Shown here in pieces: positions 28,701 through 30,457 of a stretch of DNA of 51,092 bases. Source of the stretch: Candidatus Hydrogenedentota bacterium. GTDB taxonomy: Bacteria; Hydrogenedentota; Hydrogenedentia; Hydrogenedentales; SLHB01. The stretch lies in the NCBI GenBank assembly GCA_903925285.1, contig CAIYET010000536.1:1-51092 (forward strand). The letters are read 5' to 3'. The notes under the pieces are model-generated. The model saw only the letters and a program-made list of their open reading frames with translations. It was not told where the DNA came from and made no database searches. Position 1 is the first letter of the stretch; each line of letters starts with the position of its first letter. The position numbers and the translations under genes were made by a program.

Positions 28701-29067
28701 CGCGCTCGCGCTACGAATGACGTCGGCTAAACGGATCGAACGCGAAGCGCCGTTCCTGTTGCGCATCGACGCCACGCTCGTAAGCGGGACCATCGACGCG
28801 CTGATTGACAATAGAATAGTCGTTGACTATAAAACTGGGCGTCCCCGCGCGGCGCTTCACGAACGCTACGAGTGGCAACTGCGCCTGTACGCGGCCGCCG
28901 TGCGGTCGTTGCTGGGCATTACGCCGACGGAAGCCTTGTTATATTATGCGGACCTCGGCGAAGAACGCGCAGTCGATATCGGCGTGCCGTACATGGACGA
29001 GGCGCTCGACCGCGCCGCCGCCGCGATTGAGTCGATCCGTATACCGGTAACGAACCAATCTCTATGA
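25735..29067 (+). CDS. addA: AddA/RecB-like UvrD-family helicase-nuclease
   Basis: Walker A CVDAGAGSGKT; VDEFQDTDWIQL; LMTVHKAKGLEFPIVVL; C-terminal VVDYKTGRP; ATGA overlap with addB stop. Confidence 0.92.
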   Translation: MSRTDAQQRAITAELKMLCVDAGAGSGKTLVLVERIVHLIAEKKADLDDIVAITFTDKAAAEMKARLRRAFREKAPIDDPGEMTRWRDLERRVETARIGTIHSFCARLLREHALRIGMDPDFTVLTEAETVLLRNETAIEAVHERLEATDPAAMRAATEYGPATLIDALDALLAKRGVLDRLEADLPLDDPDALAERWADLARAAHEQRLKTFARSHEVRLWIERIESFDGLCEKPTDGREVKRLEQIDLLEKLRNAENIAAINTCLAGMAAPPRQSKSSKDNWQTEAAYVGIGALFDTIKKRAQGLVWTDPDPVIEARAAQLTCDLYAMFEHVRGAFSDAKAARAAMDFDDLIASAWRMLRENESVRTRVARGIRFLLVDEFQDTDWIQLDIARMLVDEPGGPDWFFVGDAKQSIYDFRGAEVEVFQKQRTTAEEVVPLARNFRTVPEIIDFVNDVFARTGLLEAVEAEYSAIEPHRPAANEPRIAFLVPRKREEKANVEDYRRDEADLIAWRIEEMCVGPNRVMVGSDDTRPAEYGDVAILLRTFSNVHLYEEGLRRRSIPFSVVAGVGFYERQEIIDLRNLLGVVVNPWDEGALLGFLRGPLAGLSDDALAVMRRMGSVARTFWSNPLPADAPEAELLERARALASDLRGHQDLPLPAFMRYVLDATKHEAILLEQYLGGQKAWNVRKAADLAENFARTQPARLPAFVHYLEKLVGQEVREGDAAVQSRGAVTLMTVHKAKGLEFPIVVLADSGRELDETRMGLLAVHRDIGLAARVTGDDGESAKPAVYTAIRNARNEKEMAEHARVLYVGMTRARDWLLFGGTPAPGTNSWLETLDDAYCLLDRNNGGVVETEKWSAIVWRDRVAHVATPSEDRVLESLDVDALVRRAEPVIVPAIRRTISVSAVLDAMVGAHDDDEPHRESNDDFAPTFAMKRGTLVHRLFECWTPGTRMDVGAFLARECPALNLCEMLVPDLEGILQRFETGALALRMTSAKRIEREAPFLLRIDATLVSGTIDALIDNRIVVDYKTGRPRAALHERYEWQLRLYAAAVRSLLGITPTEALLYYADLGEERAVDIGVPYMDEALDRAAAAIESIRIPVTNQSL

Positions 29068-29189
29068 GACATGCCGCGTTCACGGGACTAATTGTGGATC
29101 ATCCGGATTTAGCGTACTTCACCTTCACTTTCGGAAGAAGGCCGCGCGCAGGGCTTCTGCTGCGAACGGGGAATTGTCGTTTCGATTCG

Positions 29190-29407
29190 GTTTCCCCGAA
29201 GGGGAAGAACATGAATAGCCGTGGGTGGCAACCCACGGATACAAAACCAATATCCATCGACCCTGGAAGGGTCGCACTATGTCCATATTATCGTTAATAA
29301 AGGTCGTCATTGTGCTCCTTGTGCGACCCCTTCAGGGTCGGTGGTTAAGCATTTGTACCCGTGGGTTGCCACCCACGGCTATTCATGTTCTTCCCCTTCG
29401 GGGAAAC
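29190..29407. repeat. 218-bp composite inverted repeat: perfect 49-bp arms plus a nested inner repeat
   Basis: GTTTCCCCGAAGGGGAAGAACATGAATAGCCGTGGGTGGCAACCCACGG at 29190-29238 and its exact reverse complement at 29359-29407; inner CGACCCTGGAAGGGTCGCAC (29258-29277) / GTGCGACCCCTTCAGGGTCG (29321-29340). Confidence 0.95.
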
Positions 29408-29419
29408 TCACTTGAGTCG

Positions 29420-30457
29420 ACAACTTTCCGAAAGAGAGAAGCCCTTATAAAGTACGCCAAATCCGGAAGATCCCTAATTGTGCTCTTGCTGGCAACCGGT
29501 TTCGTCTATGCGTCGCCGTTGCAAACACCGGTTGACTCTTATGTCGCAGATAAGGAGCAAAATGTTACTGATGGCATCCTGACGGTCGTTCACGATCCGG
29601 ACGACGCGGCGGTTGCGCGCGAGACGTTGGATGTGCTGAAAGAGGAACTGGCCGAATGCGCGCCGCACTTGCCCGTAGGCAGCGCGCCGGTCACGGTCTA
29701 CCTATGCCATTCGATGCAGGAATTCAAGACACGCGCGGGCGCGTATGGCCAGGCGCGCATCGGCGGCGTGGCCAAGGCGGAAAAGGGCGTCATCATCGTA
29801 CGAGCGCCGGCGATCTTGTCGTCGCCTACGGATTTTCGCGGGATCGTACGCCACGAACTGATCCACGTATTACTTGCACGCAACACCGAGCCAGCCTACG
29901 TGCCGCGCTGGCTCGACGAAGGCGTCGCGATGGTCCTGTCGAAGGAATTGCGATGGGAAAGCGCCCTCGAAGTGGCGCGGATGTATGTCGAGCGACGCCT
30001 ATCGCCGTACCGCGAACTCGATTTTGCGTTCGCGCCCATCGGCGACGAAACCACGTTCAGCGGCGCATACGCGCAAGCGTTGTCGATGACGCGATGGCTC
30101 ATGCAACGCACGGGCGAAGACACATTTTGGCAACTCGTGGCCGGGTTGCGCACGACGCCGTTCGAAGACGCGTTGCGCACGTATGCGAAGCTCACGCCGG
30201 CGGGCTTGGACGACGGCTGGCACGCCTCGCTTTGGAAAGTTGCCCTGGTCGCGTCGCTTGTGTCAGGATTTTCCGCGTTTCAATTTATGGCGGTCCTGGT
30301 CGTCGTAGTCTATCTGTACAAGCGGCGGCGCGGCCAACGCCTCATGCGGCAATGGGCCGCAGAAGACGACGGCGAACCGCCGGTGTTCCATTGGGAATCC
30401 ATCGAAGAAGGTCCGTATTCCTGGGAAGAAGAAGAGGACGATGACGAGCGGAAATAG
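29420..30457 (+). CDS. Membrane-anchored zinc metallopeptidase-like protein (peptidase MA-type); true start uncertain, after the repeat
   Basis: RHELIHVLLARNTEPAYVPRWLDEGVAMVLSKE (HExxH), N-terminal hydrophobic segment, C-terminal TM; the upstream ORF-track start at 29225 lies inside the inverted repeat. Confidence 0.7.
   Translation, partial: TTFRKREALIKYAKSGRSLIVLLLATGFVYASPLQTPVDSYVADKEQNVTDGILTVVHDPDDAAVARETLDVLKEELAECAPHLPVGSAPVTVYLCHSMQEFKTRAGAYGQARIGGVAKAEKGVIIVRAPAILSSPTDFRGIVRHELIHVLLARNTEPAYVPRWLDEGVAMVLSKELRWESALEVARMYVERRLSPYRELDFAFAPIGDETTFSGAYAQALSMTRWLMQRTGEDTFWQLVAGLRTTPFEDALRTYAKLTPAGLDDGWHASLWKVALVASLVSGFSAFQFMAVLVVVVYLYKRRRGQRLMRQWAAEDDGEPPVFHWESIEEGPYSWEEEEDDDERK

Follow-up and report, generated by a model that had tools for sequence, protein, structure and literature searches.

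A probable composite MITE with ISL3-type ends around a Y1 transposase relic in a Hydrogenedentota genome

Introduction

MITEs, ISL3 ends and hairpin derivatives of Y1 elements are each already known. PATEs have arisen from IS200/IS605 elements by internal deletion; they transpose by IS200 chemistry and leave no target duplication. Published ISL3 elements are characterized by 24-bp repeats and 8-bp duplications, and ISArsp7 begins with GGCTCTTC (PMC6305408). Among the Y1 transposases, subclass 1.2 was defined by a Y---Q--HH motif and a length of about 148 aa (Quentin et al., 2018; PMC6006769). Its members were described as occurring mostly in Cyanobacteria and Bacteroidetes, as generally without the typical IS200 terminal structures and as low in copy number (PMC6006769).

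The element described here lies in a 51,092-nucleotide stretch of DNA from a Candidatus Hydrogenedentota bacterium, which was analyzed as a whole and is called the window. It resembles ISL3 insertion sequences and MITEs, like ISArsp7 and ISPst2 (PMC6305408), by its 24-bp terminal inverted repeats (TIRs), its 8-bp duplications and its nature as a short, non-coding multi-copy derivative. In contrast to ISL3 MITEs, its interior is a relic of a Y1 transposon and not an ISL3 remnant, and no ISL3 transposase was detected in the host assembly. The core also recalls REPINs and the REP-RAYT system (PMC3116915), since it is an inverted hairpin pair with a short spacer, is present in many dispersed copies and has a Y1 gene with the same sequences. 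However, it has three hairpins per arm and sits within ISL3 ends and 8-bp duplications, unlike REPINs, and the associated TnpA belongs to class 1 (Y---Q--HH), whereas RAYT belongs to class 2 (Y---NP). The related TnpA shares with subclass 1.2 (PMC6006769) the length of 148 aa, the motifs DHLH, WQ and Y---Q--HH and the small number of tnpA copies, but differs from the published description in that tnpA is located here between long mirrored arms. As in PATEs, the element ends were kept and the transposase gene was deleted; unlike PATEs, the window copy has TIRs and a duplication.

Structure of the element

A first, sequence-only reading of the window described a 218-bp palindrome (29190-29407) with perfect 49-bp arms, further palindromes within the arms and an inner CGACCCT..AGGGTCG pair. 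All of these were found exactly where they had been placed. The palindrome is genuine and lies far outside chance expectation, with the segment folding at z = -19.6 compared to dinucleotide shuffles. However, it makes up just the core of a wider unit. The full element spans 29096-29473 (378 bp), ends in 24-bp TIRs and is flanked by an 8-bp duplication (Table 1); beyond the palindrome, the inverted repeat continues outwards in the complementary segments 29090-29119 and 29450-29479.

The motif map of the fetched copies revealed the plan TIR - spacer - H1 - H2 - H3 - loop - H3' - H2' - H1' - spacer - TIR, in which the core consists of three hairpins, a 43-nt loop and the mirrored set of the three hairpins. 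Only the TIRs and the core are mirrored. The left and the right spacer are unlike each other (57% within copies), and the element therefore has a distinct left end and a distinct right end. The left spacer of the window copy contains a 33-bp insertion (approximately 29133-29165), itself an imperfect hairpin, which is absent from the other aligned copies.

Table 1. Features of the element and of the interrupted gene in the window.
Feature	Position	Strand	Basis
First 8 codons of the interrupted Peptidase_MA gene, ATG overlaps the addA stop as ATGA	29064..29087	+	Empty-site reading
8-bp target-site duplication, left copy CTAATTGT	29088..29095	.	Perfect match in the window; significant over 16 copies
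Left 24-bp terminal inverted repeat GGATCATCCGGATTTAGCGTACTT, ISL3 type	29096..29119	+	Copy alignment, flank test, relatives
Left subterminal spacer	29120..29190	.	Copy alignment
Hairpin H1, left arm, TTTCCCCGAAGGGGAA then GAACATGAATAG	29191..29218	+	Motif map
Hairpin H2, left arm, GCCGTGGGTGGCAACCCACGG	29218..29238	+	Motif map
Hairpin H3, left arm, CATCGACCCTGGAAGGGTCGCAC	29255..29277	+	Motif map
43-nt loop, tnpA deletion scar	29278..29320	-	Alignment with the C869 and C463 tnpA copies
Hairpin H3', right arm	29321..29343	-	Motif map
Hairpin H2', right arm	29359..29379	-	Motif map
Hairpin H1', right arm	29379..29406	-	Motif map
Right 24-bp terminal inverted repeat AAGTACGCCAAATCCGGAAGATCC	29450..29473	-	Copy alignment, flank test
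8-bp target-site duplication, right copy CTAATTGT	29474..29481	.	Perfect match in the window
Remainder of the interrupted secreted metallopeptidase gene (PF13485)	29482..30457	+	Empty-site reading, homologue and domain matches

Copies and target duplications

A search of the own draft genome (8.28 Mb, 1133 contigs) returned dozens of copies with an identity of about 83-93%, many of them stopping at contig ends. The core was identified in at least 64 places, 56 of which show at least one TIR and 16 both; these counts are lower bounds because the assembly breaks inside repeats. The element is short, non-coding and multi-copy, and most full copies are about 345-380 bp long. In the flanks of 16 full copies, the best agreement is reached at a length of exactly 8 bp (73% vs. 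42% in shuffled flanks, p = 0.0005), with a weaker signal at 7 and 9 bp and none at lengths of 2-6 and 10-12 bp. The duplications abut the ends of the TIRs and not the hairpins. With these duplications and at least 64 core places, the non-autonomous mobile element that had been suggested from the sequence is borne out. In several full copies, no 8-bp duplication can be recognised, and the other copies are about 88-92% identical to the window copy; transposition may therefore belong to the past.

At least three core copies are without TIRs (C939, C696 and C139), and some movement of the core may bypass the ISL3 ends. In two of these TIR-free cores, L039 (C939) and L074 (C139), common alternative flanks were observed, GATTCCAAAA.AGCGTTG / CG.TCCG.AAATGCAG, which may represent another type of outer end. 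Other copies are rearranged, with extra or inverted core modules (L022 in G000:C541, L018 in C176, L024 in C879 and L034 in C696). In one example, two cores lie inside one TIR pair. The rearranged copies suggest unequal exchange or inversion between arms.

Relationship of the outer ends to ISL3 transposases

Of 68 genomes of the phylum, 8 contain the TIR, and none contains the reversed pattern that served as a control. A PF01610 (ISL3) transposase is encoded in 21 of the 68 genomes. For 6 of the 28 PF01610 matches in relatives, a TIR with at most 7 mismatches in 24 positions lies 18-56 bp downstream, compared to 0 of 4675 random segments. The ends are called ISL3-type because of the TIR sequence, the 8-bp duplication and the ISL3 transposase genes that end beside similar TIRs in relatives. 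The element is most likely mobilized by an ISL3 transposase acting in trans. PF01610 gave 0 matches in the own 1133-contig draft genome, and the fetched single-TIR loci contained truncated ends only and no autonomous ISL3 partner. The proposed mobilizer is thus missing, lost or unassembled in this genome; membership in the MITEs does not strictly demand a living ISL3 partner in the same genome. In G038, 14 TIR copies were found, and the listed ones (L133, L147 and L151) lie at a distance of about 100 bp from the end of a contig, which suggests that an element with these ends, near-identical and in high copy number, was lost from the assembly.

Relationship of the core to Y1 transposase genes

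The sequence-only reading had proposed to look for Y1 transposases in the genome, and two Y1 tnpA copies with the same arms are present. At C869 (L072) and C463 (L071), arms identical in type to those of the window core enclose an ORF for a TnpA of 148 aa. It belongs to the IS200/IS605-family Y1 transposases, as shown by a match to PF01797 and a score above the cut-off of NF033573; its PDB matches, to ISHp608 and other Y1 transposase structures, are weak. On the minus strand, the 43-nt loop in the window copy reads as the first tnpA codons joined to the 3' tail of tnpA. This deletion junction is common to 15 aligned full copies and to the TIR-free cores of C939 and C696, and therefore one deletion probably founded the lineage. 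The core derives from an IS200-like Y1 element (HuH) by internal deletion. Left of H1, the two tnpA-bearing loci L072 (approximately 872-900) and L071 (approximately 941-967) have about 25 nt in common, GAGTAAAGCG.TCTCC.AAATGTA. At C869, an lpxB-like ORF ends in these nucleotides, which form its last codons, and its 3' end may have been replaced by the element.

Some tnpA-bearing copies have an ISL3-type TIR on one side, namely C869 and C1096, the latter with a 3-bp deletion in the TIR, and C463 has a TIR-like left end with a 9-bp deletion. Composites of like build also occur in G059 and G061, where other core sequences lie between the TIRs and 7-8 of 8 bases are duplicated in six copies; in G059, the composite core and the arms of a tnpA from this genome match at 87%. 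The one-sided TIRs and the composites would agree with a single integrated transposon of dual mobility, in which ISL3-type ends and Y1 arms co-evolve. However, most of the examined tnpA loci of this phylum and of others have arms but no such TIR, and two different cores behind one TIR type in one genus point to separate captures. We therefore regard an integrated transposon as unlikely.

Terminal arms of subclass 1.2 transposases

The motif YVRRQEEHH and the length of 148 aa fit TnpA-Y1 subclass 1.2. Inverted arms of at least 35 nt, located within 300 bp on both sides of the gene, were found at 35 of 51 loci with subclass 1.2-related genes and at 0 of 220 control intervals. Long mirrored arms are present at 25 of the 30 loci of this phylum. 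These arms run against the lack of terminal structures in subclass 1.2, although the published statement is general and not absolute. Very similar hairpins around tnpA, without a TIR, were detected in one Sumerlaeota and one Verrucomicrobia genome. In the Verrucomicrobia locus L104 (755-981), a transposase-free mirrored hairpin unit of 227 bp and of like plan directly adjoins the tnpA gene. By eye, GA(A/G)TAG (ATAG/GTAG) was seen directly 5' of hairpin H2 in G000, G015 and L103; it recalls the GTAG guide of REPs. It is possible, and put forward here tentatively, that the subclass 1.2 proteins are the enzymes of a widespread element type with mirrored multi-hairpin ends. Its transposase-less derivatives might spread REPIN-like and be recurrently captured by ISL3 ends, so that they might move in two ways, through single strands or by cut-and-paste.

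Arm pairs in related genomes

In G015, which belongs to the same family, arm pairs like the arms of its own tnpA are dispersed and start sharply at H1 in unrelated flanks. No ISL3 TIR was found in G015 within 3 mismatches. The TIR-free G015 units also showed no consistent target duplication, a weak result as the sample is inflated by nested arrays and the right boundary is uncertain. Two of the G015 arm units (L255 and L257) have about 40 bp in common beyond the right H1 hairpin, and the true right end of these units may lie outside this hairpin. G061 contains 67 matching pieces, many of them as inverted pairs, compared to only 5 TIR hits. Together with the composites, this suggests, without proving it, that the arms can move alone and were repeatedly captured by ISL3 ends.

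The arm units of G015, the inverted pairs of G061 and the TIR-free cores C939, C696 and C139 of the own genome would also agree with a REPIN-like origin, in which the hairpin pair is the mobile unit, is moved by the Y1 TnpA in trans via single-stranded DNA and has the ISL3-like ends only incidentally. However, a TIR is present at 56 of the 64 core places of the own genome, and the duplications are located at the TIR ends and not at the hairpins. Elements of the IS200/IS605 type are recognized by ends at the hairpins and by the lack of a duplication, whereas the window copy has an 8-bp duplication at its outer TIRs. Transposition of the IS200 type is not known to leave a duplication of 8 bp. 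The duplication at the TIRs refutes the REPIN-like origin as the sole explanation of the window copy, and this origin is improbable overall.

Insertion site

The element was first placed between addA and a metallopeptidase gene but is actually located inside the signal-peptide codons of the latter. When the flanks are joined without the element and one duplication, an intact ORF of 335 aa from ATG 29064 is obtained. It begins MRHAAFTGLIVLLLATGFVYASP, and its N-terminus MRHAAFTGLIVLLLATGFVYA is signal-peptide-like. The gene body matches Peptidase_MA_2. In the window, codons 9-11 of the gene, in the region of the signal peptide, are interrupted. Homologues of this Peptidase_MA gene are present in 25 of 25 genomes of the family, and many relatives with addA upstream show the identical 4-base overlap start. 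None of the relatives of the family has the element at this site, which is empty. Absence elsewhere, combined with a lack of conservation at this locus, had been named beforehand as speaking against a mobile element. The locus is indeed without the element in relatives, but the element is present in at least 64 dispersed places of the genome, as predicted for a mobile insertion. The upstream start codon GTG 29225 does lie within the element, as had been noticed before. Starts at GTG 29225 and ATG 29279, both within the element, open an ORF that still runs into the hydrophobic segment; a restarted protease protein could thus be produced.

The perfect arms of the window copy had been taken as a sign of recent mobility, gene-conversion-like correction or selection on structure. 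Mismatch-free arms over the palindrome stretch were found in only 3 of 15 full copies. The difference between left and right arm averages 4.0% within a copy and 5.6% between copies (permutation p = 0.003). As the former is only slightly below the latter, the idea that the perfect arms reflect strong selection or a recent gene conversion was rejected. This slightly higher similarity within copies and the strong fold would suit a cruciform protein-binding site or a structured RNA that is selectively kept in place, which was the other early suggestion. However, the mirrored arms alone account for the fold, and the Rfam scan of the window gave a tRNA as its sole match and no family for the palindrome. 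Dispersed copies with target duplications, the empty locus in relatives and the interrupted gene also speak against such a site or RNA. It gained no independent support and is extremely improbable.

Origin and significance of the element

The window element is very probably a non-autonomous composite MITE, in which ISL3-type ends surround a relic of a Y1 element of subclass 1.2. In the proposed course of events, a Y1 element would have entered, or would have been captured between, ISL3 ends. A single deletion would then have removed tnpA except for its first and last few codons, while the three-hairpin arms remained. The short composite would subsequently have spread to at least 64 places, presumably moved by an ISL3 DDE transposase acting in trans, with an 8-bp target duplication at each insertion. 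The window copy would have inserted into codons 9-11 of the secreted Peptidase_MA gene.

In the open-access literature that was searched, we found no description of an ISL3/IS200 composite MITE, of its recurrence or of terminal arms in subclass 1.2. The element represents one mini-element that is built from two chemically unrelated transposition systems, and the same pairing is met again in other genera, where the cores are different. The arms supply mobile-element ends for the single-strand transposases of subclass 1.2, the mobility of which thereby becomes directly testable. At this locus, the insertion explains the misplaced start codon and a secreted protease that is probably disrupted or re-started.
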